From Candidatus Woesearchaeota archaeon (GTDB taxonomy: Archaea > Nanobdellota > Nanobdellia > Woesearchaeales > GW2011-AR15): a stretch of DNA of 34,216 nt. A program made the translations under genes and the position numbers. The DNA lies in the NCBI GenBank assembly GCA_014729915.1, contig WJJD01000054.1, forward strand, positions 1-34,216. Direction: 5' to 3'. Positions 2,809-21,896 of this stretch are shown piece by piece. Every line of letters starts with the position of its first letter. Position 1 is the stretch's first letter. Under the pieces are notes generated by a model. That model was given only the letters and a program-made list of their open reading frames with translations. It had not been told where the DNA came from and did not search any database.

Positions 2809-2818
2809 AAGAAAAAGT

Positions 2819-2828
2819 TTTATAAATA
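2819..2828 (+). promoter_or_regulatory. TATA box for a probably leaderless ATPase transcript
   Basis: TTTATAAATA lies 21-30 bp before the A of the ATG at 2849. That is the distance expected if transcription starts at or next to the start codon. No Shine-Dalgarno sequence is present, which agrees with a leaderless mRNA. Confidence 0.65.
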
Positions 2829-2856
2829 CCAATTGGTTACTTAACCAAATGGTATT
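2825..2856. promoter_or_regulatory. Palindromic candidate operator over the start codon
   Basis: AATACCAATTGGTT (2825-2838) and AACCAAATGGTATT (2843-2856) are complementary at 13 of 14 positions, with a 4-base spacer. The site begins at the TATA box and covers the predicted transcription start and the ATG at 2849. A protein bound here would block transcription initiation, so autoregulation by a product of the unit is plausible (inference). Confidence 0.6.
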
Positions 2857-4408
2857 AATTAATAACATATATCCAAAAGACAGACAGAGATTATTTACAA
2901 ACAGGAAAAAAGAATTAAAATTAATAGAATATAATGTTGAAAGTTTCTTGAAAACCGGATTAAGAAAACATCTGGTTCTAATAGGGTTAAGAAGAATAGG
3001 CAAATCTTTGATTATTTATGAATTTATTAAAAGAAATAAAAATAAGATTAATATTTCATACATTGACTTAAAAAAGACAAGTATGGAGCCCCAGTATTTT
3101 GCTACCGATTATATAAAAAAAGTACTTCAATGGTCTTTAAAAACAAAAGAAGAGGATTTATTGATTCTTGCAAATAAATTAAATAATGAAAAAATATTTG
3201 AACAAGTGAATGATTTTTTAAATAAAAAAACTAAAAAAAATTACCTTGATCAGATTAATTTTGCATTTTCATTCCCTGAGTTATTATCAAAACTTCTAAA
3301 TAAAAAAATTGTAATCTGCATTGATGAATTCCAGGATATTTTAGGTATGAACAGATATAAGGGTATTGATGATATTATTGATATTTTCAGGACTCATCTG
3401 CAATCTCAATCAAATACATTCTACATAATAACTGGTTCTGTAATAACAACAATGGAAAAAATTTGTTTGGATGATAAATCAGCCTTATTTTTGCATTTTA
3501 ATAAAATTATTAATCTATATAATTTTACAAAAGAAGATAGTTTTGCCTTAATAAAGAAAATATTCAAGCAGGAGCAACTGAGTATTCATGTTAAAGACAT
3601 TCTGTTTACTCTTTTCAAAAAAACAACAGGCAATCCTTTTTATTTAACAATTTTAACTCAAAAAATCATTGAACTAAATAAACTCTTTGATTTAGAAATT
3701 GACGAGAATCTAATTAATAAAGCATTCCTTATAGAATTAACTAATAAAAATTCCCGATTATATAATTATTTTAATTATATTTTTGAAAATTCATTAGAAA
3801 AAGCAAGAGGAAAAGCAAGTTTAAAATCTGTTTTGTTTGAACTGGCAAAAGAACAGCCTGATTCTCTAAGCAACTTATCAGAAAAATTAAATAAAAAATC
3901 TGGTGAAATGAGAACATTATTAAAAAGATTAATTGAAGTAGATTTAGTTATTCAAAAACAAAATAAGTATTTATTTAGAGATAATTTATTGAGAAAATGG
4001 GTTGCATTATTTTATTTAGGGATCAATATTGAAGTTACTAGTTCATCTAAATTCATTAATGAATTGCTTTCTCAGTTTCAGGAAAAATACCAAAGAGTAT
4101 CAACAGAACTTGGCAGAGCAACGGAATACGAATACAAGGTAAAACTTGAAAAAAAGTTAAATATAAAATTAAATAACTACAATAAAAACAATCTGGAGTT
4201 TGATCTTGTTGGAAAAAAGAATAATATTTATTATATTTTTGAAATAAAACATAGAAATAAACCTGCAAATTATAAAGATGTAAAAAACTTTTTAGAAAAA
4301 GTAGAAAAATCTGAATTCAAAAAAATAAAACTTTTTTTTATATCCAAATCAGGGTTTACAAAACAAGCAGAAGGATTGATTGAAAAGAATGGCATTGGAA
4401 TATTATGA
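2849..4408 (+). CDS. Archaeal ATPase with C-terminal nuclease-like (DUF234-type) domain
   Basis: This 519-residue protein matches the archaeal ATPase family (PF01637) with a C-terminal region of the DUF234 type. The start region RLFTNRKKELKLIE is the usual entry to the fold. Walker A is IGLRRIGKSL, Walker B is KIVICIDEFQDILG, and FYIITGSVI is the sensor-1 strand. A winged-helix stretch follows around residues 330-380 (SDSLSNLSEKLNKKSGEMRT). The C-terminus has a PD-(D/E)XK-like pattern: LEFDLVGKKN, then YYIFEIKHR. The start at 2849 is supported by the TATA box position and by the absence of a Shine-Dalgarno site. It leads a three-gene unit, overlapping the next gene by 20 bp. Members of this family are abundant in archaea and of unclear function; links to mobile DNA or defence are inferences. 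Confidence 0.88.
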   Translation: MVLINNIYPKDRQRLFTNRKKELKLIEYNVESFLKTGLRKHLVLIGLRRIGKSLIIYEFIKRNKNKINISYIDLKKTSMEPQYFATDYIKKVLQWSLKTKEEDLLILANKLNNEKIFEQVNDFLNKKTKKNYLDQINFAFSFPELLSKLLNKKIVICIDEFQDILGMNRYKGIDDIIDIFRTHLQSQSNTFYIITGSVITTMEKICLDDKSALFLHFNKIINLYNFTKEDSFALIKKIFKQEQLSIHVKDILFTLFKKTTGNPFYLTILTQKIIELNKLFDLEIDENLINKAFLIELTNKNSRLYNYFNYIFENSLEKARGKASLKSVLFELAKEQPDSLSNLSEKLNKKSGEMRTLLKRLIEVDLVIQKQNKYLFRDNLLRKWVALFYLGINIEVTSSSKFINELLSQFQEKYQRVSTELGRATEYEYKVKLEKKLNIKLNNYNKNNLEFDLVGKKNNIYYIFEIKHRNKPANYKDVKNFLEKVEKSEFKKIKLFFISKSGFTKQAEGLIEKNGIGIL

Positions 4409-5538: not shown

Positions 5539-8500
5539 ATGAGCATGAGTAAAAAAAGAGGAATTCTGAATCTGATATTTATAATTATATCAATAATATT
5601 TTTCATAAACATAGTAAAAGCACAGTGGCTCTACTGCGGTGTTGAAAACCCTGATGGTACATCAGCAGGCCAGAATAGTGTTGTTTTTGATCCGACAGGG
5701 GGAACACCAAATGCAATATGCAGCTACCAATGGTCAATATACTGCAGCCAGATTGGAGACTACAGGAGATGGGCATATTCAGATGATGCAACAGAATATA
5801 TTGTTGGTGTAAACACAGATGATCCTTCTCATCCGCAATATCACTGGGGAACAACATATTCAGACAGACAGGACAGACAGATAATACATAGCTGCAACTG
5901 TGTTGCCTGTAACCTGGATAACCCTGATCTTTGCAACATAACCGGAAGATGGATGACCTGTGATGAAAACCAGGTTATTGAAAGTACAGAATGCAGTTAT
6001 TACTGCTACCCTTTTTGTCCTGTTGATACAAGCTCAAGAGACTTCTGCAATGCAACAATTCCCTGCCAAGGATCAGAGACCTGCTGTGATAACATGTGCT
6101 ATGAAACAGACACAAATAAAAAAAACTGCGGAACATGCGGAAATGATTGTGAGTTTTTAGAATACTGCAATTCAGGAATATGTGAATCATTATGGCTCTG
6201 GTCACCAGATGCACAGACAGAATGCAGCTGCTATGACGGCATTGACAATGACAGGAACGGAATAATTGATGAAGGTTGTGATTGTGTTGAAGCAGAAGAA
6301 AATCTGACTGGTACACCAATTGATATGATGCTTGCAATAGACAGAAGCGGGAGCATGAACAGCCAGACACAGTCTGGAGATACAAAAATGGATATTGCAA
6401 AAACATCATCTATAAATTTTATTAATATGGACGTCTGGATTGAAACTGATGCGATGGGACTGGTTACTTTCGGAACACAGGCAACCCTTGACCAATCAAT
6501 GCTTCTTATGACTTATCCTAACAGAGAAATATTAAATGACACTGTGCTCTCTATCTCACCTGGAGGATATACTGCAATGGGAGATGCAATTAATCTTGCT
6601 GTAAATGAGATTTTAACAGGAACATCCTCTCACAAATATATCATTCTCCTATCGGACGGAATAAGCAACAGGGGAGAGGGTTCTCTTACAGCTGCACAAA
6701 ATGCTGCTGACAATAATATTGAGTTATATACTATCGGTATGGGTACAGATGTTGATGACTCAAAATTAATAAATATTGCTGAGATGACCGGAGGAGAATA
6801 CTTTTTTGCTGTGAACGGAGACGAGATAAATGATGTTTTCTTATACATAGGAAGAGAAATCAAAGGATATGAAAGACTGTGCGGACCTGACACAGATATA
6901 GGAGAATGTGATTTTGGTTCTCAAATCTGCAATGAAACAACACTACAGTGGCAAGGATGTGTTGGTGCTGTTTTTCCGACAGATGAAATTTGTGACGGAC
7001 TTGACAATGACTGTGATGGATTTATTGATGAAGGGGGGTGTGCATGCATCTCTGAAACAGAAGTCTGCGACGGGCTGGATAATGACTGTGACGGGCAGAT
7101 AGATGAGATTCCGGAATGTAATTGTGATGACGTAGAAACAAATTGCAACGACGGCATTGACAATAATTGCAATGGAGAATGGGATTATGATACTTTAGAC
7201 AGAGGATCTTTTGGAAATGTTCCTCCGCATGGAGATTCTGATTGTGCAATTAATCTTACAGATATTTCATTAGACCAAACCGATTACTGCAAAGATACTT
7301 GGTTTGAAGCTAATTGCACTCCTCATGTTTCTCCTGTAAACAGTGTTGAGATGTATGTTGATGAGAATTTAAATTCCATCCCTGATCAAGGAGAGTACTG
7401 CTCATATTTAAGATGGGAATTAAATTCCGCAGTATTTAACTGCAGTTCAAAAAACAACGGCCAAAAAAATGTAACGTGCATTGTAAATCAGTCAAAATCC
7501 TATCAGACAGGAACAAATCAGTCATTTGAAATAAATGTTCTCGGAGATACTCCTGTTGTAACACTTTATGATCCAAATAACAATACTCATATAGAAAATT
7601 ACTATAAATATTATGAAACTGTTTTTATATATAGTGTGCAGGATTCATCAGATAATATTTTCAACTGCACCTTGTTGCTGAATAATGAATCTGTATTAAA
7701 TAATACAGATATACCTGAAAGCACAATAGTTAATTTTACAATTAATCTGACATCTGATGATTATGAATGGCAGATAAGCTGTACAGACAACTCAATCTGT
7801 AGGAGTACAGGATACTCCGGCAAAAGAAAATTATCAATATCTTATCATGAAGAAATAGACATAAGATCTCTGGATTACAGTTACCTTACAAATCCTGAAT
7901 GCACATCACTGCCTGCAGTAACCCTAAACATATCTTATCCTCCTTTTGCACAAAGCTGCAGATTCGGAAATGAAAATAAGGATACCTGGTCTTCAACTTA
8001 TCCATTGTGGGAGCCATGCATCTCTCAAAAATACTGGATACTAAATAAAACAAAAGGTATCAGAACAGTTCATATTGAGATAAAATATAATGATACATAC
8101 ATATCAGGACTAAATGATACAATTGAATATGATCCTTTAGGAAAGTGCATGGATATTACTGAACCAATGCCCCCGAGTGTTGTTGACGACGGAAATTATT
8201 CTAATTCAGACAGCACTTTCCATGCTTACTGGTATGGAGCATATGACCCTGAATCAATTAAGTATAACCTCAGACTAGAGTATGAATATTTAATAAATGA
8301 TTCAAACGGAACAGTTGTGACCCATCCATTAGGAGGATGGAACAGTACTGGTTATGATACAGAAATTAATCTTATTAATCTGAATCTGAGCCATGGAGAA
8401 ACATATTATGTTCATGTTAAAGTAATAAATTCAAATAATTTAACTTCAACATATTCTTCTGACGGTATAACTGTTGATGTAGTTAATCCGGGTCTAACTT

Positions 8501-10044
8501 TATTTTCTCATCCACATGGGAATAACTGGACAAATAATAATACTTTAGATTTCAGCTGGTCAGGTCATGATTCTGTCTCAGGAATTTACGGGTATAGTTT
8601 TGTTCTGGATAACAAAGATTTAACAATTCCTGATAAGATTACTGATTTTCCAAATATAAATTCTAAACAAATTAATGATCTTGTTGACAATAACTATACT
8701 TTTCATATAAGACCAAAAGATAATGCCGGAAACTGGGGAGATGCTGTTCATTCAGATGAGATAGGAATAGATACTAAAGCCCCGACAAAACCTCAATTAA
8801 TAGAAGATACAATACTTGCTGATTCAACTGAAGAAATCACTTTCTTATGGACAGAATCACTTGATCTGCCCTTAGGTAAAGCATCAGGACTTTTTTCTTA
8901 TTTTCTGAATGTTACTGATCTTAATATAGATCAGGTAATATTTTCTGAATGGGTAGGAAAACAACAGGAATATACATTAGATTCCACTGACAACATAATA
9001 GAAGGTCATAGTTATCATGCGAATGTGATTTCTAAAGACAAGGCAGGAACAAATAGTACATTTGTAGAATCGGAAGATACTACGCCTCCGGAAATAACCT
9101 TTATTAAACCAAGAGGAGATGTAGCTCAAACACCAATACTTATTGTAAAAACAAATGAAAATACTGTATGCAAATATAGTCTTGATTCAGCAAATTACAG
9201 GATATTTAGATACACAAACTCTACATATCACGAATCAATAATAAATACAGTTCCGGGATATCATGATGTTGAAATTATTTGCACAGACAATGCCGGGTTA
9301 ATAAATTTCACATCAACCTTTTTTAATATCACAGAAAAAATTCTTTCTTCGATAAATATTGTGAAAGAAAAAGAATTCTTTTCAGGAATTAATTCTGAGC
9401 TTATTATTTCTACACAACCGGAAATAGGCGAAATAAAAAGAGAAGAGATTAATGTGCAGCTAAACTCTGAAAAAATAAATGATTTTGTGTTAGAGGATCT
9501 TGGAGCAGGCAACTATAGTCTTATTCTGGTTCCTGAGAAAAACGGAACAGTCCTGATAAACATCACAATAAGATCAGTAAGTGACCAAATTGTTGTAAAT
9601 ATTAACGAATTTAAATTCAACCTTGAATATACCGGAAATATCGGTAATGTAATTCAGGATGAAAAATATATATCAAGCCAAAAAGATTCTGTATTTGGAT
9701 TAGCAGCAGACAGTTCAGAAGTTAAAACAGGTAATTCTTCATCTTCTATACGTATTAAATCCGGAACAGATGGTGTTGTATACATATTTAACACAAAAAC
9801 TTCTGAAACATTAGATGAAAAACAAAAGGATCTAAAAAAAGCGACATTTACAAATAATTTAAATGCATTCGGATATAGATTTGATAAAAAATACAAACTC
9901 ATATCATACAGGAGCTATAGTGATATAATGTTTGAAGAAATTTTTAAATTTCAGAAAGGTAAATACGAATTTAAAATTAAAAATCAGGGTTTAGATGAGA
10001 ATGATAATATTAAAATAAAAATTTCTCCTATTGAAAACTCCTAA
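5539..10044 (+). CDS. Giant secreted protein with vWA domain and MopE-like motifs
   Basis: This is a 1501-residue protein. Residues 1-28 form a Sec signal peptide (basic start, IFIIISIIFFINIVKA, then A/Q cleavage). A cysteine-rich region follows, with a motif at about 229 (CSCYDGIDNDRNGIIDEG). The vWA domain spans about 262-450 and keeps a full MIDAS: DRSGS at 268-272, Thr345 in GGYTAMGDA and Asp373 in LLSDG, so it should bind a divalent metal and a protein ligand. Putative metal-binding motifs of the MopE type lie at about 485 (CDGLDNDCDGFIDEG), 509 and 535. From about 770 to the end is a module shared with the next two genes, with Fn3/Ig-like strands and many N-x-S/T sites. No C-terminal anchor is visible. 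The role is probably cell-surface adhesion (inference). Confidence 0.88.
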   Translation: MSMSKKRGILNLIFIIISIIFFINIVKAQWLYCGVENPDGTSAGQNSVVFDPTGGTPNAICSYQWSIYCSQIGDYRRWAYSDDATEYIVGVNTDDPSHPQYHWGTTYSDRQDRQIIHSCNCVACNLDNPDLCNITGRWMTCDENQVIESTECSYYCYPFCPVDTSSRDFCNATIPCQGSETCCDNMCYETDTNKKNCGTCGNDCEFLEYCNSGICESLWLWSPDAQTECSCYDGIDNDRNGIIDEGCDCVEAEENLTGTPIDMMLAIDRSGSMNSQTQSGDTKMDIAKTSSINFINMDVWIETDAMGLVTFGTQATLDQSMLLMTYPNREILNDTVLSISPGGYTAMGDAINLAVNEILTGTSSHKYIILLSDGISNRGEGSLTAAQNAADNNIELYTIGMGTDVDDSKLINIAEMTGGEYFFAVNGDEINDVFLYIGREIKGYERLCGPDTDIGECDFGSQICNETTLQWQGCVGAVFPTDEICDGLDNDCDGFIDEGGCACISETEVCDGLDNDCDGQIDEIPECNCDDVETNCNDGIDNNCNGEWDYDTLDRGSFGNVPPHGDSDCAINLTDISLDQTDYCKDTWFEANCTPHVSPVNSVEMYVDENLNSIPDQGEYCSYLRWELNSAVFNCSSKNNGQKNVTCIVNQSKSYQTGTNQSFEINVLGDTPVVTLYDPNNNTHIENYYKYYETVFIYSVQDSSDNIFNCTLLLNNESVLNNTDIPESTIVNFTINLTSDDYEWQISCTDNSICRSTGYSGKRKLSISYHEEIDIRSLDYSYLTNPECTSLPAVTLNISYPPFAQSCRFGNENKDTWSSTYPLWEPCISQKYWILNKTKGIRTVHIEIKYNDTYISGLNDTIEYDPLGKCMDITEPMPPSVVDDGNYSNSDSTFHAYWYGAYDPESIKYNLRLEYEYLINDSNGTVVTHPLGGWNSTGYDTEINLINLNLSHGETYYVHVKVINSNNLTSTYSSDGITVDVVNPGLTLFSHPHGNNWTNNNTLDFSWSGHDSVSGIYGYSFVLDNKDLTIPDKITDFPNINSKQINDLVDNNYTFHIRPKDNAGNWGDAVHSDEIGIDTKAPTKPQLIEDTILADSTEEITFLWTESLDLPLGKASGLFSYFLNVTDLNIDQVIFSEWVGKQQEYTLDSTDNIIEGHSYHANVISKDKAGTNSTFVESEDTTPPEITFIKPRGDVAQTPILIVKTNENTVCKYSLDSANYRIFRYTNSTYHESIINTVPGYHDVEIICTDNAGLINFTSTFFNITEKILSSINIVKEKEFFSGINSELIISTQPEIGEIKREEINVQLNSEKINDFVLEDLGAGNYSLILVPEKNGTVLINITIRSVSDQIVVNINEFKFNLEYTGNIGNVIQDEKYISSQKDSVFGLAADSSEVKTGNSSSSIRIKSGTDGVVYIFNTKTSETLDEKQKDLKKATFTNNLNAFGYRFDKKYKLISYRSYSDIMFEEIFKFQKGKYEFKIKNQGLDENDNIKIKISPIENS

Positions 10045-10120
10045 AAAAAAATCTATTGATTTTATTTGGGTTTTCTATTAAGCCGGGAGGTATGATAGTT
10101 AGAGAATCTTTGGAATTTAA

Positions 10121-10144
10121 CATTTTTGCTTTGCAGAAATTCAT
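10121..10144. repeat. Short near-palindrome before the second adhesin gene
   Basis: CATTTTTGCTTTGCAGAAAT followed by TCAT is nearly symmetric around GCTTTGC. It resembles the perfect palindrome at 32250-32266 (ATTTCGCTTTGCGAAAT) and, in its right half, the GAAATTCAT ending of the tandem repeats near 5490. It lies 19 bp before the ATG at 10163. A shared regulatory or mobile palindrome is possible, but the evidence is thin. Confidence 0.35.
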
Positions 10145-10162
10145 AAGGTAAATATTAATATT

Positions 10163-12472
10163 ATGTGTAATAAAAAATTTTTAAAATATGTATTTATTGT
10201 TTTAGCTGGTCTTGTTCAGTTATCATTAGCTGATACTCTGTTTATTCATAATCTGGGCCATACAGGTTTTGACCAAATACATCCTGAATACACTTCAATA
10301 AGAACAGTCTATCTTAAAATTAATTATAGTTCACAGCCTGTAGAGTGCAGGTATGCAAATCATAACTCCTCAATAAATTCTCCTGAACAGGGAAGTTCTG
10401 CATGGACTTATTGGGAACCCTGTTTTGAACAAAAATACTGGACTTTATCAGATTATGCAGGAATAAAATATGTATATGTCCAGATAAACTACTCATCATC
10501 AATTGTTTTATTAAATGATTCCATATTCTATAATTCAACAGGTGCAGGACTTGATGTAACTCCCCCGACAACACCTGATTTAAAAGTTAAAAGATACCAG
10601 AATGACAATGAAAGTATAGTAGTCAAATGGGAAAAATCAAATGATTATGAATCCGAGGAATTGCTGCATATCCCGTTAATATATGAAATTAAATTATTCA
10701 ATGATAGTTTTGAACTAATAAAGAATGATACTACAAAAAAGTTAAAATACACATTTTCCAATCTTTCTCTGTCCCATAGAGAAAACATAACAGTTAATGT
10801 AACTGCTGTTAATTCAGCAGGACTAAAAAGCAATTCTTCAAGTCAAAAAATATCAATTGATCTTGTTTCTCCATACCTTACTAGTATTGATCTGGCTGAG
10901 TTTTTAAATTCTACTTCAAAAATATTTCAGCCAGTTTCCCAAGACGTCTGGATTAATACTGAAGAACTTAGATTTTCATGGTCAGGATATGACTCTGATT
11001 CAGGTGTTTATGCATTTAGTTATCATTTGTCTGAGAAAAATAAAAGTCCAGACAATATTCCTGAAGGAGATATCGGCGGATTTTCCAGTGAAACTTCACA
11101 TAGATTTTATCATTTGAACACAGGAATATTTTATTTTACAGTAATGTCTAGAGATACGGCAGGAAACTGGGATAATAATTTTGATTCTCAACTTATAAAA
11201 ATAGACAAAACACCTCCAAAAAGACCTGAAATAATTTCTAAAAAATATAATGCTAAAACCGAATCATTAACATTTTACTGGTCAGGTTCAGAGGATGATG
11301 AATCAGGTATATCATACTACAGGGTAAATGTTTCTGATCAGGATGATGTTTTTGTTGAGAGTTTTATTGTTAATGATACTACCGGAACATTAAATAATAC
11401 TCTTTCTCAAAAATACAAGGCAATTGTCGGGGTAAAAAATGGTGCCGGGATCTGGAAATGGTCCAATCAAAAAGAAGCAGAAATAGACTCAGATGCCCCG
11501 GAAATAAATTCTTTTATTGAGGGAGTAATTAATTCTAACAACCCGATAATCAGTATTGAAACAGATGAAAAATCCAGTTGCAGATATAAGATGCCTTCTG
11601 GTAAATATCAGTTATTTAGATTTACAAATTCAACATATCATGAAGACATCATAAATGTTTTGGACGGGTTAGTAAATATTGAAATTAACTGTTCGGACAG
11701 ATATGGCAATTATAATGATACCTTTGCAATTTCTTTTAATGTAGATACATCTTATGAACCTTATCAGATTGAGATGCCTGATAATCTTACCACATACCAG
11801 GATTCTTTATTTTCATTCAGTGTAAATGTCACATCTGATAACTCTACTCTTCTTTCAGGAATACCTTTTCAGGATTGGTCTTTTAAAATTTCCGGAAAAG
11901 ACCAACTATTTAGTATATTTGATGCTGGCAGCGGAAAATACAATGTTTATTTTATCCCACCACTTGATCCCGGAAATTACCAGATAGAGCTGTGCATAAG
12001 AGAAAATGTGTGCAATAGTAAACTAATTAACGTCTTTGCTGTCAGTCTTGAAACTAAATTTGTTACAGATGAAGCTCTGTCAGTACAGACTACAGAAAAA
12101 ATATCCTATCATAAGGATTCAGAAAAATTTTTCGGATTAGCTTCAGATGATAGAAACACAGATCCTGATCCTTCAAAGATAAAAATAAATTCCAGTCTTA
12201 ATAACAACATATTTATCTTTTCAAGTTTTGAAAAAACTCCTGTTTTACATAAGGATAAATATCTTAAAAATAAAGAATTCTTAAAAAAGACAGCTCCGAA
12301 TTTTGGTTCTTCTTTTATTGAAATTATCAAATTAAATTCTATATTAAAATATGAGGATATAAAACTAGTTACTGATAATAATATTCTCGTAAGACAAAGT
12401 AGTAAAAAAATTAGGCTTAAAAAAACCCACAAAGACGGCAAAAGAGCAGTAAAAATTGATTCATTAACATGA
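10163..12472 (+). CDS. Secreted adhesin-like protein, shared C-terminal module only
   Basis: This 769-residue protein has a signal peptide (KKFLKYVFIVLAGLVQLSLA, then cleavage before Asp) and consists almost entirely of the module that ends its two neighbours. Landmarks are FIHNLGHTGFDQ at the mature N-terminus, RTVYLKINY, WEPC at 84-87, SIFYNSTG, Fn3-like strands, GAGIWKWSNQ, a cysteine-containing domain ending RFTNSTYHEDIIN, and a Gly-rich Ig-like end (DAGSGKYNVYFIPP). Potential N-glycosylation sites are frequent. No catalytic motif or membrane anchor is visible. Its stop overlaps the ATG of the next gene (ATGA at 12469), so the two are cotranslated. I infer a structural surface protein. 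Confidence 0.85.
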   Translation: MCNKKFLKYVFIVLAGLVQLSLADTLFIHNLGHTGFDQIHPEYTSIRTVYLKINYSSQPVECRYANHNSSINSPEQGSSAWTYWEPCFEQKYWTLSDYAGIKYVYVQINYSSSIVLLNDSIFYNSTGAGLDVTPPTTPDLKVKRYQNDNESIVVKWEKSNDYESEELLHIPLIYEIKLFNDSFELIKNDTTKKLKYTFSNLSLSHRENITVNVTAVNSAGLKSNSSSQKISIDLVSPYLTSIDLAEFLNSTSKIFQPVSQDVWINTEELRFSWSGYDSDSGVYAFSYHLSEKNKSPDNIPEGDIGGFSSETSHRFYHLNTGIFYFTVMSRDTAGNWDNNFDSQLIKIDKTPPKRPEIISKKYNAKTESLTFYWSGSEDDESGISYYRVNVSDQDDVFVESFIVNDTTGTLNNTLSQKYKAIVGVKNGAGIWKWSNQKEAEIDSDAPEINSFIEGVINSNNPIISIETDEKSSCRYKMPSGKYQLFRFTNSTYHEDIINVLDGLVNIEINCSDRYGNYNDTFAISFNVDTSYEPYQIEMPDNLTTYQDSLFSFSVNVTSDNSTLLSGIPFQDWSFKISGKDQLFSIFDAGSGKYNVYFIPPLDPGNYQIELCIRENVCNSKLINVFAVSLETKFVTDEALSVQTTEKISYHKDSEKFFGLASDDRNTDPDPSKIKINSSLNNNIFIFSSFEKTPVLHKDKYLKNKEFLKKTAPNFGSSFIEIIKLNSILKYEDIKLVTDNNILVRQSSKKIRLKKTHKDGKRAVKIDSLT

Positions 12473-15400
12473 GATTAAAAAAAATAGTAATTAAAATCAT
12501 AATAATTCTTGGAATTGCTCTTTCAATTTCTTCTTCTGTAAATGCCTGGTGGAATTCTAGCTGGCAATACAGGCAAAATTTAACATTTGATAATAGCGGA
12601 CAGTCATCCTTGTCTGATTTTCCTGTTCTCATACATTTAACACCAACAAATTTCAATTACAGCCACATAAGACCTGACGGGAAGGACATTAGGTTTATTG
12701 ATTCTGATGATTCTACTAAGCTGAGCTATGAAATAGAAGAATGGAATTATAATGGTGACTCATATATCTGGGTAAAAGTTCCAAATATCCTCGCTAGTTC
12801 AACAAGTGATTATATTTGGTTATATTATAATTATTCTCAGGCAAGTGATGAACAGGACAAAGAAAATGTATGGGATGAGTATTATATCGGAGTTTGGCAC
12901 TTAAATGAAACAGGGACAGGAACAAGATATGATTCCACTTCAAATAACCAAGATGGGACAACCATTAATTATGATGGTACTGAAGGTATTTCTGCAAAAA
13001 TTGCTGGTGGAGAAGAAATAGATGGCATTGATGACTCAATAAATACTGGTTGGTATCCTTCACCGAATAATTATACTATCAGTTTCTGGGTTAATTGGAA
13101 CAGTATATCAGAATATGGGTTATCAGGAACACATGATGAGGCAAATCATCGTCTTTATCTTGGGATCGATGTAGAAAATGATGCTATGTTTGGTGCAGGA
13201 AACACGTATGTTGCTGCTGATGATCATCACATGACAGCAGGAACATGGTACTATCTCACGATGACAACTAATGGAACAGATGCTTTTTATTATGTGAATG
13301 CGACTCAAAAATCAACTTTTAGCTTTACATGGACAGGAACAAGTGCTGGAGCTTTCTTACTTGGTGATATTGGTGGGAGTTATGGTGCCAGTAATGATAG
13401 GGATATTAATGGTATTATTGATGAGTTTAGAATATCAAATATAACTCGATCACCATCCTGGATAAGCGCAACCCACCTTGCAATGTCTGATCAGTTTATT
13501 ACTTACGGAAATGAACAAGGATATTCTCCTCCCCCTGAATGGTGGAACAATGACTGGATCTGTAGAAAAAATTTAACATTTGATAATTCAGGACAAACAG
13601 AACAATTAGCTGCTTTTCCGGTTTTAGTGAAATTAACTCCGAGTAATTTTGATTATTCAGATGTTCAGACTGATGGTGATGATATTAGATTTGTTGATTC
13701 AGATAATACATTAAGTTTAAATTTTGAAGTTGAAGATTGGAATTATAACAGTGACTCATATATCTGGGTAAATGTGCCAAATATTCCTGCTTCTTCCAGT
13801 TCAGATTATATATATATGTATTTTTGCAATCCTTCTGCAGCAAATGGTGAAAATCCGGAATCTGTCTGGAACAATAATTATGTCTTTGTTCAGCATCTTG
13901 AAGAATCTTCGGGTACAATATTTGATTCCACATCTTTTAATAATGACGGTTCTGTTAATGGAGCTGTATATAGTAGTTCCGGATATCTAGACGGTAATTA
14001 TGAATTTGACGGCGATACTGATTATATCTCTGTTAATGATGATAATAGTCTTGATCTCTCAAATACTTTTACACTTGAAGCCTGGATATATCCGACTGCC
14101 TGGGGTGGCTCCGGACAGTACGGAAGAATAATCCATAAAGCTGACTCCGGAGGATATAGATTTTATACAAGATCCTCTTCATCCAGTGTAGCTTTATTTG
14201 ATGGTTCAAGCAGATGTGACAGCGGTTCAATACAGCTTGATCAATGGACTTATGTTGCTGCTACATTTGATGAGTCTGCATATCCTGAAGCAGACTTATT
14301 TCTCGACGGATCCTCTTCAACCGGAACTTGTTCAGGAGACTTTACTTTTAGTGCAACAACCGGATCTCTGTGTATCGGCTCCAGCTGTGGAAGTACTGAA
14401 GAATTCCAGGGCATGATTGACGAAGTAAGAATCTCAAATAATCTACGATCAGATTCCTGGATAAGCGCATCCCACCTTGCAATGTCTGATCAGTTTATTA
14501 CTTTCGGAACAAAAGAGACAAATAAGGTTTCTGACGGAGAAAGCTGTAGTAATGGTAATGGGTGCCTGAACAATTTATGCATAGAAGGGATCTGCAGGAG
14601 CAGTTGTTCTTCTTCTTACAACGGAGACAGATGTTCTGATGATTCATTTGCATATGATAACATAAACAGCGGTATCTGTGCAAGAACTTATTCAGGATTC
14701 TGGACTTGTGATAAAAATGAAGTATCTTATTTTTCAACTGATTATTACCAGGATTGTTATTACTCGGAAAACGGAGCACCATCAAGCTCAATTCAATGTG
14801 ATGGAGATGTAGATCCTTCTTATTCTGGTGAAGGGATCTGTTCTTATTCTTCAGGTGCCGAAAGTATATCTTCTGTGAATTGTGATACAGATGAGATATG
14901 CTATGATGACACAAATTATAGAAATGATTGTAATAACTGTTATTTATCAGGAAGTGACTGGGATTCCTGTGATTATAATGTTGGAATAAGTTATGCTACT
15001 GACGGAATCTGTGTTTATAATGGTGAATGTGATAATTCAGGTGAAGCCTGTTACAATGGTACAGTTTATGTTTCAGACTGTACAAACTGCGGTATTTCAA
15101 CAACTGACAACGACGCCTGTGATTCAGTAATAAGTGATGGAGAGTATACAGCCAATGGAATCTGTGTTTATAATGGTGAATGCGATACTGATGAAACCTG
15201 TGTTTACGGATCATCCGGTACAATTTATCCCGGCTGCAGTTATCCTGACTGTGATCCTTCAAATGGTGTTGAAAACAAATGTACACCTTTAGGAAGTACA
15301 GTATGGGCGCCTGATGGGTTGTGTACTGGATCTGAAGGAAGCGAAGTCTGTACACAAAACGGAAACGAGATTTGTATTGATTCTGCAGATTCAAACAGAT

Positions 15401-17880
15401 TAAAAAACAATTGTAATAACTGCAATAATATTGATTCATGTGATAACTTCCTCTCAGACTCAGATTTTGAGCAAGACGGAATATGCTGCTTTAGTTCATG
15501 TGTCGGAACTGATTCTTCTGACTGCTGCTCAGATTCTGATTGTTCATCCGGAGAATATTGTATAGGATACATGTGTATTTTTTCAAAACCAGTTAAACTA
15601 GATGTTTATAATCTGGGACAAACAGGATTTGAACAGACAAACCCAAAATTCAGTTCAATAAGGACAGTATATCTTGAGATGAACTATTCAGGAGAACCTG
15701 ATGTATGCAGGTATGTTAATTTTGATGATCCGGCCCAGGCACCCTCAGATGATTATCCTTTATGGTCAAAATGGGAACCCTGTTTATTAAAAAAATTCTG
15801 GAAAGTATCAGAATATACAGGAAACAAGACTGTTTATGTCCAGGTTAATTTTACAACTTCAAGTTTCCAATTTTTAGTTAATGATTCAATATTTTATAAT
15901 TCAACAGGAGAAGGAGGAATAGATACTACTCCTCCAGGAGCACCTATAATAAATGACGGGAATTATTCAAACAATAACAATACAATTAAAGTTTCATGGG
16001 AGAGTGCCTCTGATTTTGAATCAGTTGAAGTATTAGGAATACCTCTTCAATATTTTGTTGAACTAATTGTAAATAATACCCAGATTAAAAATGCAACAAC
16101 TTATAAGGAGTCTTATACATTTACAGGACTTAACTTAACACATGGAACAACTGTTATATTTAATGTGACAGCAATAAATTCTGCAGAATTAATAAATACA
16201 TCTTCATCAGACGGTGTGCTGATAGACTTAGTTTCGCCCGCGCCTGCGCCAATTATTCTTGAACATAATATACTAAATCTCACAACACAAACATTAGAGG
16301 AAGCAAATCAAATAGACTGGTATAATACAAGAAAAGTTCAATTTTACTGGAATGCAGATGGACATGACACTGACTCAGGAATCGGGGCTTACAGCTACAT
16401 ACTTACAACCAGAGCAGACTCATTTCCTGATTATATTCCTGAGGGAAATGAACAGTATTACCCTAAGGAAAAAAATCATACTTTTGAAAAACTTAAACAA
16501 GGCAATTACTATTTCAAAGTTCGGGCAGAAGATAAAGCTGGAAACTGGGGAGATTACAGGGAATTTAACATTCATGTTGACAATACTCCTCCTGAAAGAT
16601 CTGAAATATTAACGAAAAAGTATGATTCAGGTATGGGCACAATAGAATATTTTTGGAGTGAATCAGATGATATCTCAGAAATAGTCAGTTATCAGATTAA
16701 TCTTACTTATCCAAATAAAACATTATATAAGACAAAACAGGTCTCCGGAACAGAAACTAATTGCAGCATAATTGTTGATTCAGACACATATAACGCTATA
16801 ATAGGGGCAAAAAACGGAGCAGGGATATGGAGATGGTCAAATCAGCAACAGGTAATTACAGATTTTGATCCGCCTGAAATAATAAAAAAACAACCATCAG
16901 CTCTCTATGTATCTAATGAACCAAAAATTATGATCTGGACCAATGAAAAAGCAGTCTGCAGATATAATATTACAGGAACCGATTATACAGATTTCTTATA
17001 TACTGAAGATACATATCATGAATCAAAAATAAAATCCCAGGAGAATATGGCTTCTTTTAAGATTTTATGCACAGATTTATACAATAATACAATGACATCT
17101 CCTGAATTCCTGGAATTTAAACTGGATTTTCAACAAACTGCTGAAAACGGAAATTCAGATTCTGTTGTTAATACATATCCAAAAGTAAAGACTATTTTTA
17201 ATTTTAATGTGTCAAATTCATCAGGTAGTTTCCTATCAGGAATTTCAAGCAAAAGAATTAATATTCTTTCAGATAATATTAAATTAGATTATGATACTCA
17301 TGATAGAGGAGACGGAAATTATTTAATTTCTTTTATTGCACCTGAAAGTCCGGACACTTATATTTTGAATCTTAGTATTGATTCATGGAGCAGTTTAATA
17401 ACCCTGAATGTTGATAATCTACATTTAATTACTGAGATAAAATCAAATTCCGTTACAAATAATTTTTCACATATTGTCTATGCTGATGAAAATGATTACA
17501 CCGTCGGTATCGCTGCAAACAATAAAAATGCAACATTAACACCAGGGAGATTAAATTTATCTTCATCAGTTTACTCAGAAATACTTGTTTTTGTTTCCAG
17601 ACCAGATATTAATCTTAAAACAAGAAATACGCTGTTAAAAAGAAACGAATTTTTAAAACAAATAAATCCGAATTTCGGATTCAATACACAAAATAAATAT
17701 TTTATATCAACATTTCTTTCATATAAAGACAAAGACATTTATTCAGATGATGTCGGTTTTCTTGATCAGGGTATACATAATCTCTTGATAATAAATAAAT
17801 TCAGTTCTAACAATTATACAGAACTTAAAGTAACTAAAAACATTTCATCTTCAAAAGAAGAGGTATTTGTTTATGAATAA
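12469..17880 (+). CDS. Giant secreted protein: two DUF2341-LamG units, Cys-rich region, shared module
   Basis: This is an 1803-residue protein with a signal peptide (VIKIIIILGIALSISSSVNA). Domain order: DUF2341 (about 27-135, starting WWNSSWQYRQNLTFDNSG), concanavalin/LamG-like (about 140-345), a second DUF2341 (about 358-465, WWNNDWICRKNLTFDNSG), and a second LamG-like domain (about 470-682) ending in almost the same motif as the first. A cysteine-rich stretch with internal repeats (GICVYNGECD twice, 51 codons apart) spans about 683-1040. The module shared with the two upstream proteins covers about 1041-1803 (WEPC at 1102-1105). DUF2341 and LamG-like pairs usually bind glycans on surface proteins. 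The gene starts by ATGA overlap and its end overlaps a pilin-like gene, tying it to the pilus operon. A candidate pilus-associated adhesin. Confidence 0.88.
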   Translation: MRLKKIVIKIIIILGIALSISSSVNAWWNSSWQYRQNLTFDNSGQSSLSDFPVLIHLTPTNFNYSHIRPDGKDIRFIDSDDSTKLSYEIEEWNYNGDSYIWVKVPNILASSTSDYIWLYYNYSQASDEQDKENVWDEYYIGVWHLNETGTGTRYDSTSNNQDGTTINYDGTEGISAKIAGGEEIDGIDDSINTGWYPSPNNYTISFWVNWNSISEYGLSGTHDEANHRLYLGIDVENDAMFGAGNTYVAADDHHMTAGTWYYLTMTTNGTDAFYYVNATQKSTFSFTWTGTSAGAFLLGDIGGSYGASNDRDINGIIDEFRISNITRSPSWISATHLAMSDQFITYGNEQGYSPPPEWWNNDWICRKNLTFDNSGQTEQLAAFPVLVKLTPSNFDYSDVQTDGDDIRFVDSDNTLSLNFEVEDWNYNSDSYIWVNVPNIPASSSSDYIYMYFCNPSAANGENPESVWNNNYVFVQHLEESSGTIFDSTSFNNDGSVNGAVYSSSGYLDGNYEFDGDTDYISVNDDNSLDLSNTFTLEAWIYPTAWGGSGQYGRIIHKADSGGYRFYTRSSSSSVALFDGSSRCDSGSIQLDQWTYVAATFDESAYPEADLFLDGSSSTGTCSGDFTFSATTGSLCIGSSCGSTEEFQGMIDEVRISNNLRSDSWISASHLAMSDQFITFGTKETNKVSDGESCSNGNGCLNNLCIEGICRSSCSSSYNGDRCSDDSFAYDNINSGICARTYSGFWTCDKNEVSYFSTDYYQDCYYSENGAPSSSIQCDGDVDPSYSGEGICSYSSGAESISSVNCDTDEICYDDTNYRNDCNNCYLSGSDWDSCDYNVGISYATDGICVYNGECDNSGEACYNGTVYVSDCTNCGISTTDNDACDSVISDGEYTANGICVYNGECDTDETCVYGSSGTIYPGCSYPDCDPSNGVENKCTPLGSTVWAPDGLCTGSEGSEVCTQNGNEICIDSADSNRLKNNCNNCNNIDSCDNFLSDSDFEQDGICCFSSCVGTDSSDCCSDSDCSSGEYCIGYMCIFSKPVKLDVYNLGQTGFEQTNPKFSSIRTVYLEMNYSGEPDVCRYVNFDDPAQAPSDDYPLWSKWEPCLLKKFWKVSEYTGNKTVYVQVNFTTSSFQFLVNDSIFYNSTGEGGIDTTPPGAPIINDGNYSNNNNTIKVSWESASDFESVEVLGIPLQYFVELIVNNTQIKNATTYKESYTFTGLNLTHGTTVIFNVTAINSAELINTSSSDGVLIDLVSPAPAPIILEHNILNLTTQTLEEANQIDWYNTRKVQFYWNADGHDTDSGIGAYSYILTTRADSFPDYIPEGNEQYYPKEKNHTFEKLKQGNYYFKVRAEDKAGNWGDYREFNIHVDNTPPERSEILTKKYDSGMGTIEYFWSESDDISEIVSYQINLTYPNKTLYKTKQVSGTETNCSIIVDSDTYNAIIGAKNGAGIWRWSNQQQVITDFDPPEIIKKQPSALYVSNEPKIMIWTNEKAVCRYNITGTDYTDFLYTEDTYHESKIKSQENMASFKILCTDLYNNTMTSPEFLEFKLDFQQTAENGNSDSVVNTYPKVKTIFNFNVSNSSGSFLSGISSKRINILSDNIKLDYDTHDRGDGNYLISFIAPESPDTYILNLSIDSWSSLITLNVDNLHLITEIKSNSVTNNFSHIVYADENDYTVGIAANNKNATLTPGRLNLSSSVYSEILVFVSRPDINLKTRNTLLKRNEFLKQINPNFGFNTQNKYFISTFLSYKDKDIYSDDVGFLDQGIHNLLIINKFSSNNYTELKVTKNISSSKEEVFVYE
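17860..17864 (+). promoter_or_regulatory. Ribosome binding site deciding the pilin-like start at 17873
   Basis: GAGGT lies 8 bases before the ATG at 17873, inside the end of the adhesin gene. This favours the ATG over the in-frame TTG at 17867, which is only 2 bases from the site. Confidence 0.7.
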
Positions 17881-18346
17881 TAAATCTCAGTTATATATAT
17901 TTGCAGCAGTAATTTTCTGTACACTGGTTTTTCTAAGTTCATTTTCATATGTCGTGATTGAAAATCCGACTGAAGAAGTAAAACAAATTTATGATAATTT
18001 TATTTTTGAAAGTTATTATACTATAAACAACGCTGTTTATGAAAATAAAGATATTAACCAACAAGTAAAAAATTTAACAATTACGTTTATTGATTATTCA
18101 AAACAAAAAAATATTAATCTGGGTATCTTTTATGTTCTTATTATACCAGCAAGAGAAAAATCTTATATAGTAAATTATTTAAACTCAAAAGCCAATATTA
18201 ATCTTATAAATACAATACTTCCCGGAACTGAGGAAGAATTAAACATTGGGAAAAATCTGACAATTGAACTGGATAACAGGCAATACTCTTTTAATATACC
18301 AGAAGGAAACGATATCCAACTAAAAGTATTAATAAGAAAACAATGA
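17873..18346 (+). CDS. Pilin-like protein with class III-type N-terminus
   Basis: This 157-residue protein begins MNNKSQLYIFAAVIFCTLVF. A short polar start with Lys-Ser-Gln followed by one hydrophobic helix (about residues 6-28) resembles the class III signal peptides processed by archaeal prepilin peptidases. The remainder is a predicted extracellular domain with N-x-S/T sites. It starts inside the last codons of the 1803-residue adhesin gene, has a good ribosome site, and overlaps the next pilin gene by ATGA. That placement suggests a minor pilin or a membrane-anchored partner of the adhesin. The family is not recognised beyond the N-terminus. Confidence 0.75.
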   Translation: MNNKSQLYIFAAVIFCTLVFLSSFSYVVIENPTEEVKQIYDNFIFESYYTINNAVYENKDINQQVKNLTITFIDYSKQKNINLGIFYVLIIPAREKSYIVNYLNSKANINLINTILPGTEEELNIGKNLTIELDNRQYSFNIPEGNDIQLKVLIRKQ

Positions 18347-18798
18347 AAAATAAAAAAGGTGTTTCAGTCTATGTAAGCTGGATAATCGTAATTGCTATTG
18401 TGGTATCATTAAGTTTTATCATGTATCAATGGACACTAGACAGAGTAAAATCCAAAAACCAGGAATTAAACACCCGTAGTGATCTTGCATTATGCGAGCA
18501 GGTAGCTGTAAATATAGATGGAATCTGTCAAAATCCACAAATTTTAAATATTAATATTACAAATACAAAAAATATAAAAATCGACAGATTAGTTTTCAGA
18601 CTAGTTGATATTTACGGCAATTCACAAAACAGAGAAGAAGAAGTCAATATTTATCCTGGTGAAAAGGAAATAAATTCAGCAGTATTAAAACAGGGCACAT
18701 TAAGCAGCGCAAGAATTATTCCTGTCATAATTCAGGACCAAACTTATATACTCTGCCAGTCAGCATCAATAGAAAAGCAAAACATAGATCAATGTTAA
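18343..18798 (+). CDS. Archaeal type IV pilin-like protein
   Basis: This is a 151-residue protein. The N-terminus MKNKKGVSVYVSWIIVIAIV has the archaeal class III signal form: basic KKG, predicted cleavage after Gly, then a hydrophobic helix to about residue 28 that would pack in the pilus core. The rest is beta-rich, with cysteines at about 51, 62, 138 and 151, possibly forming disulfides. It starts by ATGA overlap with the previous gene and is followed after 16 bp by the next pilin. It is probably a structural or minor pilin of the system assembled by the ATPase at 20340. Confidence 0.8.
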   Translation: MKNKKGVSVYVSWIIVIAIVVSLSFIMYQWTLDRVKSKNQELNTRSDLALCEQVAVNIDGICQNPQILNINITNTKNIKIDRLVFRLVDIYGNSQNREEEVNIYPGEKEINSAVLKQGTLSSARIIPVIIQDQTYILCQSASIEKQNIDQC

Positions 18799-18814: not shown

Positions 18815-19324
18815 ATGATTAAAATATCATTCAGAAAAAAAGGAGTTTCTCCTTTAATAGCTACAGTTCTGCTTATTGCATTTTCAGTTGCACTCGGTGC
18901 AGTTGTTATGAGCTGGGGAAGAAGTTTTATAGATTCACAGACAAGTGATGTAGATTCCGGAACATCCCAGCAGATGACTTGTTCACTTGATGTAGGAATT
19001 AATTTTGTTACTATAAACAGTAGAGAATTAATTTGTTATGATTCAACAACAGGTGAGCTTGATATGACTATTGAAAATACCGGAGTTACAAATATTTCAG
19101 GAATCATGATTAAAGCTATAGATAATAATAATGAAGTGCATAGTGCAAGCAATTCAACTGCGATGGGAGTAGGAAGCGGACAAAGGTATGTAGTCTCATT
19201 TAGCTCAATTCCTTCTTCATTGCAGTTAGTAACTGTATCTCCGATAATGCAGGGACAGGGCAGCACACATTCAAGAATGTGTACAAATGTTAATCTCAAA
19301 AAAGACAATATTGAATCATGCTAA
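18815..19324 (+). CDS. Archaeal type IV pilin, candidate major subunit
   Basis: This is a 169-residue protein. RKKGVSPLIATVLLIAFSVA is close to the consensus of the archaeal type IV pilin N-terminal domain (PF07790/DUF1628 family): KKG, cleavage before Val, then SPLIATVLLIA and a long hydrophobic helix. The C-terminal part looks like an extracellular beta domain rich in Ser, Thr, Asn and Gly, including DMTIENTGVTNISGI, a strand pattern common in archaellin-like folds. It is preceded by GAGGTG and overlaps the next gene by 7 bp. The strong ribosome site and best consensus make it the likeliest main pilus subunit (inference). Confidence 0.87.
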   Translation: MIKISFRKKGVSPLIATVLLIAFSVALGAVVMSWGRSFIDSQTSDVDSGTSQQMTCSLDVGINFVTINSRELICYDSTTGELDMTIENTGVTNISGIMIKAIDNNNEVHSASNSTAMGVGSGQRYVVSFSSIPSSLQLVTVSPIMQGQGSTHSRMCTNVNLKKDNIESC

Positions 19325-20046
19325 ATATGAATAAAAAATCCCAGGTGTGGATATCAGCAATTCTCTATACATTAGTTGCAAGTGTCGCATTAGTCTTAAT
19401 TCTTGAAGCAGGAATTCCTATCCTGGAAAGACTAAAAGATTCCGCAACTTTTTCACAGACAAAAGATACTCTATTAAATCTCGATCAGCACATTCAAGAG
19501 GTAGCAAACGAGGGAGAGGGTTCTCAGAGAATGGTAAATCTTGAAATTAAACAGGGAGAGCTTTTAATTGGAAATAATCAGATATTATGGGAATTTGAAA
19601 CAAAAAGCAGAATTGTCGATCCAAGGACAAGCAGGAAATACGGAAATCTTGTTGTTACAAGCAATGCAAATGTAAGAACAATTGAAAACAGCACTCATTA
19701 TTTATTAACAACATATATTAAAAATGATACTTTTGAGGTGAGGATCAATAAAACAGGCTCAGAATCAAATTGGAACCCAATTAATACATCAGAAATTATT
19801 GATTATATAAGCTTTAACAATAATAAACTGAACGGAACCTTTTCTTTTTCAATAAACAACAACCCTGATTCTGTTGTCGGAAACGGTTATACAAGAATCA
19901 CACCTGAAGGAAACAATACAAATCTCGGCAGGGCAAAGGTAGTTGCTCATATCAACTCAAGTTTTGCAGAGTATGATCTGGAATTTATTCTTGAAAGCTA
20001 TGCAGATTTTATTATTACCAGAGTAAAAAACTTTGAGCCAAAGTGA
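19318..20046 (+). CDS. Pilin-like or pilus-associated protein with N-terminal helix
   Basis: This 242-residue protein begins MLNMNKKSQVWISAILYTLV; a second ATG at 19327 would give MNKKSQ, matching the KSQ form of the pilin-like protein at 17873, and is perhaps the true start. One hydrophobic helix (residues about 11-33) is followed by a large predicted extracellular domain. This contains EVANEGEGSQRMVNLEIKQG, a pattern I associate with pilus-related archaeal proteins, and many N-x-S/T sites. It is the last gene of the pilin run and is followed by a terminator-like hairpin. A minor pilin is the best guess. Confidence 0.75.
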   Translation: MLNMNKKSQVWISAILYTLVASVALVLILEAGIPILERLKDSATFSQTKDTLLNLDQHIQEVANEGEGSQRMVNLEIKQGELLIGNNQILWEFETKSRIVDPRTSRKYGNLVVTSNANVRTIENSTHYLLTTYIKNDTFEVRINKTGSESNWNPINTSEIIDYISFNNNKLNGTFSFSINNNPDSVVGNGYTRITPEGNNTNLGRAKVVAHINSSFAEYDLEFILESYADFIITRVKNFEPK

Positions 20047-20299: not shown

Positions 20300-20321
20300 A
20301 AAAATCACGTTAGTGATTTTT
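20300..20321 (+). promoter_or_regulatory. Hairpin in the leader of the secretion ATPase gene
   Basis: AAAAATCAC (20300-20308) and GTGATTTTT (20313-20321) are perfect complements around the loop GTTA. The stem ends 9 bases before the ribosome site GAGG at 20331-20334. It could tune translation of the ATPase or serve as an operator, or could act as an attenuator because its 3' arm ends in five T. Confidence 0.55.
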
Positions 20322-20339
20322 AGAATAAAAGAGGATGAA

Positions 20340-21896
20340 ATGATAAAGCACCGCTCAATTTTTAAAATTGACACAAGACCTGAAATAGTAGATCTTCCAT
20401 CAATTAAAAACAGAAGAAAAATCGATGTGCGGTATCCATTAATTAAACCATATGCATATGCGCATATTTATTGGGATGAGGATAATAACGAACTTGTATA
20501 TCATGTTGAAGAACCTCATTTGAAAACATCAGAAAAAGAAATATTAAGACTGCTTCTTTTAGCTCTTGAAGAAATGATAAATATAAGCTACAGTGTTGCA
20601 AATAAATTTAATCTCATCTTAAATTATCTTGAAAAAAATGTCCAGGCAATATTAGTTGAATTGGGCACAAAAGTCTCAAAAGAAACCTATCTTAAACTTA
20701 TGTATTACATCTTCAGGAACTCAATCGGATTAAACAGGATAGAACCCCTTCTTCATGACTATTATATTGAGGATATTGAGTGCAACGGGCTTGATTCTCC
20801 ACTCTATATTGTGCATAGAAAATATGAAAACCTGAAGACAAACATAATATACAAAGATATTCAGGAACTTACTGATTTTGTAGAAAAGCTGGCCCAGAAA
20901 ACAGGAAGGTATGTTTCATATGCAAAACCCCTCTTAGACGGAACTTTACCAGACGGGTCCAGGGTTAACGCAACATACACACAGGATGTAACAACAAGAG
21001 GACCTACATTTACAATTCGAAAGTTCACAAAAGAGCCCTGGACACCAGTCCATCTCATCCTGTCAAAAACAGCTTCGGCTGATATATTTGCATATATCTG
21101 GATTGCAATAGAGCATAAAAGAAATTTTATTGTTATTGGTGAGACAGCTTCAGGAAAAACAACATTTTTAAACAGCATCTTAAGCTTTATACCCCCTGAA
21201 GCAAGAGTGTGCTCAATTGAAGACACACGCGAATTAAATCTAGCTCACGATAACTGGATGCCCTCTGTCACAAGAACAGGCTACGGCATACCGAATCTTA
21301 TGGGAAAAGAATACGGAGAAATAACACTTTTTGATCTATTAAAAGAGAGTTTTAGACAAAACCCAGATTATGTAATTGTTGGAGAAATTCGGGGAAAAGA
21401 AGCATATGTCCTGTTCCAGGGAATGGCTTCTGGACATGCATCATTCGGAACATTTCATGCAGGCTCAGTAGAAACTCTGATGAGAAGACTAGAAACACCT
21501 CCAATAAATCTTTCACCGTCATTAATTGAATCATTAGACATTGTTTGTGTTATGTCACATCTTAAAGATTCTGATAAGAATATCAGAAGATTAAAGCAGC
21601 TTGTTGAGATACAATCAAAAACTCAGAGTTCAGAAAAAGTACAGAAAAACATACCTTACGAATGGGATCCTGTATCTGATAAAATTTTGCAGAAAACTGA
21701 ACTTTCTTTGTTTTCTGAAATTTCAAAAGACTCTGGTATAAGCATAGAAGAACTGAAAAATGAACTTTCTTTAAGAACAAAATTATTAAGCCAGATGGCA
21801 ATGATGAAGATGAAAGATTTTAAAGAAATCAACGAAATAATCAAAGAGTATTACATTGACAAAGAAAAAGTATTATCCCGATTAAACTTAATATGA
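20340..21896 (+). CDS. FlaI/GspE-type pilus assembly ATPase
   Basis: This 518-residue protein belongs to the type II/IV secretion ATPases that power pilus assembly at the inner face of the membrane. The ATG at 20340 is chosen because GAGG stands 5 bases before it; an upstream GTG at 20313 lies inside a hairpin and is unlikely. Walker A is GETASGKT near 267-274, the Asp box is CSIEDTRELNLAH, Walker B is DYVIVGEIRGKEA near 343-355, and the His box is GHASFGTFHAGS. The N-terminal part has the family's LLHDYYIEDIECNG segment. The gene is first in a unit with a coiled-coil protein and a TadC-like membrane protein, with ATGA coupling, directly after the pilin operon. All catalytic motifs are present. 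Confidence 0.93.
   Translation: MIKHRSIFKIDTRPEIVDLPSIKNRRKIDVRYPLIKPYAYAHIYWDEDNNELVYHVEEPHLKTSEKEILRLLLLALEEMINISYSVANKFNLILNYLEKNVQAILVELGTKVSKETYLKLMYYIFRNSIGLNRIEPLLHDYYIEDIECNGLDSPLYIVHRKYENLKTNIIYKDIQELTDFVEKLAQKTGRYVSYAKPLLDGTLPDGSRVNATYTQDVTTRGPTFTIRKFTKEPWTPVHLILSKTASADIFAYIWIAIEHKRNFIVIGETASGKTTFLNSILSFIPPEARVCSIEDTRELNLAHDNWMPSVTRTGYGIPNLMGKEYGEITLFDLLKESFRQNPDYVIVGEIRGKEAYVLFQGMASGHASFGTFHAGSVETLMRRLETPPINLSPSLIESLDIVCVMSHLKDSDKNIRRLKQLVEIQSKTQSSEKVQKNIPYEWDPVSDKILQKTELSLFSEISKDSGISIEELKNELSLRTKLLSQMAMMKMKDFKEINEIIKEYYIDKEKVLSRLNLI

Follow-up and report, generated by a model that had tools for sequence, protein, structure and literature searches.

Pilus adhesins with varied heads are already known, and archaeal tip adhesins containing DUF2341 have been predicted before. 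vWA and lectin domains are heads of the kinds used elsewhere in tip adhesion by type IV pili (T4P) (PMC8179133); in Streptococcus sanguinis two minor pilins carry them, PilB the vWA domain and PilC the lectin (PMC8179133, PMC9934059). For the archaea, Makarova et al. 2016 proposed a PilY-like tip adhesin role for the large DUF2341 proteins encoded in clade 1 T4P loci (PMC4858521), and a DUF2341 gene from the pilus locus of M. maripaludis received many independent transposon hits in a transformation-loss screen dominated by pilus genes (PMC10133366). The clade 1 proteins (Methanococci, Methanobacteria, Thermococci; arCOG03508; PMC4858521) are large and secreted, and are encoded with several class III pilins, a T4P ATPase and TadC proteins; the same is true of the proteins described here, from a 34,216-nucleotide stretch of Woesearchaeota DNA (the window, that is, the whole stretch analysed). 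The background question is by what means these small DPANN archaea identify partner cells or surfaces and keep hold of them.

Three tandem secreted proteins and their shared module

Three adjacent genes on the plus strand of the window encode secreted proteins of 1501, 769 and 1803 aa (P0001, P0002 and P0003), the start of P0003 overlapping the stop of P0002 by 4 nt. Their features are as follows (arrows mark signal cleavage sites).

5539-10044, plus strand: P0001 (1501 aa), first gene of the tandem; signal peptide ..INIVKA↓QW, Cys-rich vWA/MopE head, type A module
6322-6822, plus strand: vWA domain of the P0001 head (PF00092, 7e-19)
7855-10041, plus strand: C-terminal module of P0001 (type A), from three-way alignment and own-genome search
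10163-12472, plus strand: P0002 (769 aa); signal peptide ..SLA↓D, bare module without head
10238-12469, plus strand: module of P0002 (type B), parts D1-D7
10238-10561, plus strand: D1 of P0002, CRY/WEPC...KYW domain, ~108 aa
10559-11497, plus strand: D2-D4 of P0002, three Fn3 domains
11489-11761, plus strand: D5 of P0002, CRY/TYHE Ig-like domain
11762-12031, plus strand: D6 of P0002, filamin-type Ig
12029-12469, plus strand: D7 of P0002, C-terminal domain, ~145 aa
12469-17880, plus strand: P0003 (1803 aa); signal peptide ..SVNA↓WW, DUF2341-LamG twice, Cys-rich stretch, type B module
12676-12876, plus strand: DUF2341 copy 1 of P0003
13672-13932, plus strand: DUF2341 copy 2 of P0003
14008-14466, plus strand: LamG_3 (concanavalin A-like; Pfam), best copy; there is a second matched stretch in P0003
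15598-17877, plus strand: C-terminal module of P0003 (type B), from BLASTP and three-way alignment

A sequence-only reading of this DNA had claimed that the three proteins share their C-terminal part. BLASTP bears this out with E-values from 3e-59 to 5e-127: P0001 785-1463 aligns with P0002 40-733 (31% identity, E=9e-70), P0002 26-745 with P0003 1044-1767 (36% identity, E=5e-127), and the C-terminal parts of P0001 and P0003 with each other (28% identity, E=3e-59). In all three proteins the module is ~730 aa long and extends to the stop codon or close to it; its pairs share 28-36% identity across ~720 residues and score 213-405 bits, against 30 bits for the best of 1000 shuffled controls. The landmarks on which the claim had been built, WEPC...K(Y/F)W and C(R/K)Y...TYHE, are invariant in the three-way alignment, and GAGIW(K/R)WSNQ is indeed present in two proteins only, P0002 and P0003. 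The N-termini were also rightly described as unlike. The P0001 head matches VWA and MopE (1e-11) in Pfam, and the MIDAS-type residues of its vWA domain are intact (D268-x-S270-x-S272, T345, D373); the P0003 head matches DUF2341 twice (7e-29) and LamG_3 twice (1e-36); in P0002, which has no head, the module begins straight after the signal peptide. On inspection all three N-termini look Sec-type, with SPase I-like sites (VKA↓Q, SLA↓D and VNA↓W, respectively). A search of the own genome returned no further full-length copy of the module. Elsewhere in this genome (G000:C8, about 18-38 kb) lies an 8809-codon open frame with at least 8 DUF2341 matches, a giant surface protein without full-length module match.

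The module consists of seven parts in constant order: the CRY/WEPC domain (D1), three Fn3 domains (D2-D4), the CRY/TYHE Ig-like domain (D5), a filamin-type Ig (D6) and the C-terminal domain (D7), which carries the motifs GxAxD, YIFxT and PxFGY. The three Fn3 domains are related to one another (HHalign E 1e-7 to 1e-15) and match those of titin and contactin, D6 matches filamin Ig, and D5 is weakly D1-like (HHalign E=0.002). Pfam and NCBIfam give names for the heads only, the module yielding just weak Ig matches, and neither D1 nor D7 matches any Pfam, NCBIfam or PDB sequence. The "Gly-rich Ig-like end" of the sequence-only reading was correct in so far as there is a filamin-type Ig, but a separate domain of ~145 aa comes after it. 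As only window and related-locus sequences went in, the AlphaFold2 alignments were shallow: with 7 rows, the bare P0002 module was modelled as a chain of beta domains (pLDDT 67, pTM 0.35), and in shallow-alignment models of the last 250 residues D6 was confident (pLDDT about 90) and D7 low-confidence (pLDDT mostly <50-60). Foldseek hits of the module model in the PDB were generic Ig/Fn3 chains with low TM-score, which we do not take as kinship. We also considered D7 as a pilin-like domain, a candidate ruled out at the sequence level (HHalign probability against pilins <1%).

In a set of 50 family proteins, a median of 2 residues lies between the end of the module and the stop, and a C-terminal TM helix was found in none of them. 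Headed type B members of genera g4/g5 (L051:8284, L052:16471 and L054:5068) have a hydrophobic segment after about 35-55 residues, which could be either a long signal peptide or an uncleaved membrane anchor.

Linkage of the module to one pilus operon

Downstream of the tandem lie four genes that we call pilA to pilD, as working labels and with no claim of orthology, followed by the genes of an assembly ATPase and a platform protein. pilA overlaps the stop of P0003 by 8 nt.

17873-18346, plus strand: pilA-like, class III signal ..NNKS↓QLYIF; constant first gene of the pilus core
18343-18798, plus strand: pilB-like pilin, ..KKG↓VSVYVSW; weakly UpsA-like, homologous to pilC
18815-19324, plus strand: pilC-like pilin, ..KKG↓VSPLIATVLL; archaellin/type IV pilin N-terminal domain
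19318-20046, plus strand: pilD-like (242 aa), ..KKS↓QVWISAILYT; operon marker in the co-occurrence test
20313-21896, plus strand: T4P assembly ATPase (T2SSE/FlaI-like, PilB3_C; PF00437, 7.5e-29)
22087-23817, plus strand: platform protein (T2SSF/TadC/FlaJ-like; PF00482, 1.8e-15)

The operon has the components of an archaeal type IV pilus, namely a T2SSE-type ATPase and a T2SSF/TadC platform, with FlaI/FlaJ-type NCBIfam matches; the ATPase matches NF058587 at 4e-117, under the equivalog cut-off. The class III signals of pilA-pilD and their homologues, recognised by inspection, consist of (K/R)(G/S/A) and then a hydrophobic stretch, and two PF01478 prepilin peptidase genes over the cut-off are located elsewhere in the own genome. 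HHalign shows pilB and pilC to be paralogues (99.5%); pilC, which matches TIGR02537 (5e-6, over the cut-off) and UpsA (7e-8), is a candidate for the major pilin. A further pilus or secretion locus, distinct from this one, occupies part of the minus strand of the window (28433-32179), with another T2SSE ATPase (630 aa) and two T2SSF-like genes, after which come a TM protein (225 aa) and a protein bearing DUF4215-like Cys repeats (392 aa). Ahead of the operon, at 1139-4408, are genes that by appearance encode a 509-aa AAA/PD-(D/E)XK-like protein (minus strand) and a 519-aa ATPase-like protein (plus strand).

The sequence-only reading had asked for a profile search with the module and for a look at whether its homologues adjoin pilin or ATPase genes. 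A three-row profile detected full-length modules in a set of 60 relatives; a 32-row profile was then run on 353 genomes of the order plus a phylum sample, and a pilD profile independently on the same 353 genomes. Full-length homologues were recovered across the order (E to 1e-261), and pilin, ATPase and TadC genes stand beside practically every locus with enough contig. The module C-terminus was detected in 49 of the 353 genomes; pilD was present in 47 of these 49 compared with 17 of the 304 others, 287 genomes having neither (Fisher p=1.7e-41, not corrected for phylogeny, the co-occurrence being partly inherited by descent). In the phylum sample, 45 of 46 module-positive genomes belong to the order. 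Where module and pilD share a contig (42 genomes), they are always on the same strand with the module upstream, at a median of 2.46 kb. As a rule, the final module gene adjoins pilA or runs into it, the overlap commonly being 1-8 nt.

Ten of the 17 pilD genomes lacking a strong module C-terminus were inspected: the contig ends before or at the slot in five, the module is divergent in two and seemingly absent in three. Divergent loci (L110, L111, L112 and L113) have lost middle parts of the module and kept parts of the N-terminal half and D7. Matches to the middle only were obtained in 21 genomes, and the operon is absent from 17 of these, which is what generic Fn3/Ig domains would lead one to expect. 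Two variant arrangements were observed: at L114-L115 (G281:C6, about 32-51 kb), ~20 kb of small genes, by appearance PIN-like, AAA ATPase-like and repeat-protein fragments, separate the module gene from pilA, and in G289 a large insert sits after pilA.

The sister orders of the class have the pilus core in many genomes, with a PilD of about 170-190 aa compared with about 240 aa here. No module gene was found at ten sister-order pilus loci, where the genes upstream of pilA are unrelated, and two genomes of the same order (G030 and G239) have the operon and the long PilD without module at the locus. The module is therefore not needed for the pilus, and the absence from sister-order loci indicates that this order added the module proteins to a pilus that is older than they are. 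The idea that PilD in its long form (about 240 aa) is the docking site is only suggestive, since G239 and G030 have it without a module at the locus.

Head exchange and proposed role

In a tree built from 35 modules, two groups separate (support 95/89, midpoint root), the second of which includes the single-gene loci of other families. Where both types occur, type B adjoins pilA and type A, as in P0001, is the distal gene. Types A and B are encoded together in one operon in at least six genomes (G000, G005, G044, G104, G105 and G222), which fits a multi-subunit structure. Among relatives, the heads recognised by Pfam are vWA/MopE, DUF2341-LamG, LamG, DUF4215, beta-helix/NosD with DUF7402, and Big_7/Big_13; about two thirds of the heads tested in relatives have no Pfam match. 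DUF2341 heads occur in P0003 and at locus L049 only, and in neither P0001 nor P0002. Bare copies are recurrent (G000, G001, G005, G008, G044, G054, G058, G104 and G222).

That the heads are interchangeable had been supposed from the three proteins alone; exchange, gain and loss are now seen on orthologous modules. Bare P0002 pairs in the tree with the headed L048 protein (1418 aa; support 96-97/81-82, 43% identity), which is its orthologue in a congeneric genome; the L048 head is 673 aa long, and its first ~90 residues match the heads of type A proteins (E 9e-11 and 3e-8). In family f36, the proximal type B orthologue is bare in L059 and has a LamG-like head in the closest relative, L121.

We propose, with a probability of roughly 0.6, that P0001-P0003 are Sec-exported adhesins of an archaeal type IV pilus. 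The module would be the pilus-attaching part; it most likely docks on the minor pilins of the genes that follow directly (pilA-pilD), and its place is most likely the filament tip. The heads (vWA with MIDAS, DUF2341-LamG and others) would face outward to bind ligands, either protein or glycan, of other cells or of surfaces, and the bare copy would be a common adapter or spacer assembled with headed copies. As the proteins have no C-terminal TM helix, another attachment is needed, and Sec export, the missing C-terminal anchor and an operon-bound module together make pilus attachment through the module the most plausible one. The "anchoring or assembly module" of the sequence-only reading can be narrowed to a probable pilus-docking module. 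Docking on the pilins is putative, as D7 has no sequence relation to pilins and its model is of low confidence, and an uncleaved N-terminal anchor in some members could count against pilus display. It is possible rather than probable that the module is a dedicated non-pilin socket, used bare and headed, that types A and B co-assemble into a heteromeric tip fibre on the minor pilins, and that a head swap changes the target cell.

The same proteins might instead sit off the filament, as a cell-surface or S-layer-associated collar or base around the pilus or as a cell-wall layer. S-layer-like proteins are listed among the neighbours of archaeal T4P (Makarova et al. 2016; PMC4858521), the chain of Fn3/Ig domains looks like a generic surface stalk, and some members perhaps keep an N-terminal membrane segment. 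We nevertheless regard this as unlikely: a C-terminal anchor is found in 0 of 50 proteins, the heads are of adhesin type and exchanged, and an S-layer protein would be expected to occur independently of the operon, whose marker is missing in only 2 of 49 genomes. Confinement to the operon likewise speaks against a pseudopilus-type secretion system whose exported substrates carry the module as a secretion tag, because tags should also turn up on unlinked cargo and full-length modules are essentially operon-confined; the module is moreover bigger than a tag requires, and is found bare. Pilins, ATPase and platform protein are common to T4P and T2SS-like machines, and a single C-terminal module on varied cargo does look tag-like, but we rate this account as quite improbable.

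It is hardly credible, finally, that the shared part consists of common Fn3/Ig repeats tandem-duplicated by chance beside a pilus locus. The sequence-only reading had itself named pure Fn3/Ig repeats without a specific family as the outcome that would tell against it, and for the middle this description is apt: D2-D4 are Fn3, D6 matches filamin Ig, and middle-only matches without the operon occur in 17 of 21 partial-only genomes. It does not extend to the whole, in which (i) the complete seven-part chain recurs in fixed order in dozens of genomes, (ii) the ends, D1 and D7, are unique and without match in the libraries, (iii) what divergent members lose is middle parts, some of the N-terminal half and some of D7 being retained, and (iv) the full chain, instead of occurring in any context, is tied to one operon across the order (p=2e-41).

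Comparison with described pilus systems

In the literature searched, with most subscription journals outside its coverage, the module is described nowhere. The suspicion of an undescribed domain family was justified, D1 and D7 being in no Pfam, NCBIfam or PDB sequence and the module being tied to one operon. New are (i) a shared non-pilin module with two uncatalogued domains and an order-wide lock to one operon, and (ii) the coexistence of bare and headed copies, the two old lineages and the directly observed head exchange. The outcome is an order-wide set of candidate pilus adhesins identifiable by a single C-terminal module. The heads are the likely determinants of specificity, and cataloguing them from genomes, comparing them with co-occurring organisms and testing their binding become feasible; D1 and D7 offer two uncatalogued domains for structure work.

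Compared by description only, the clade 1 archaeal loci (PMC4858521) differ from the present one in that DUF2341 is here one head among several and in that the defining C-terminal module is absent from their description; clade 1 is characterised by its own ATPase clade, at least five class III proteins and two TadC proteins. The window has four pilins and one adjacent TadC-like gene, and additional pilC copies or a small TM gene and a second TadC are carried by many relatives. Ups pili of the Sulfolobales are matched weakly, pilB/pilC and the platform protein scoring far under the equivalog cut-offs for UpsA and UpsF. The Kil/Tad pili of Myxococcus (PMC12075869) likewise have variable tip complexes, but their tips are minor pilins with extra domains, encoded in separate clusters and with no shared non-pilin module. 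S. sanguinis PilB and PilC (PMC8179133, PMC9934059) share with our proteins the vWA and concanavalin A-like lectin heads and the presence of several tip paralogues; their heads, however, are C-terminal on a pilin, whereas here they stand at the N-terminus, ahead of a non-pilin module, in proteins with a Sec-type signal, and the polypeptide that bears the head has neither the class III signal nor the pilin alpha1 of a modular minor pilin. PilY1/PilC of bacterial type IVa pili are also large secreted proteins with a vWA head, a conserved C-terminal part, a gene beside minor pilins and presumed tip display. The vWA head, found here in P0001 only, and the minor pilin operon are insufficient for membership: a PilY1-type beta-propeller has no Pfam match in P0001, P0002 or P0003, the C-terminal part is here an Fn3/Ig chain with a unique end, and there are tandem paralogues including a bare copy. 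On our best reading, these proteins belong to neither PilY1 nor the modular minor pilins and would resemble both in function, as an archaeal counterpart constructed on another building principle.
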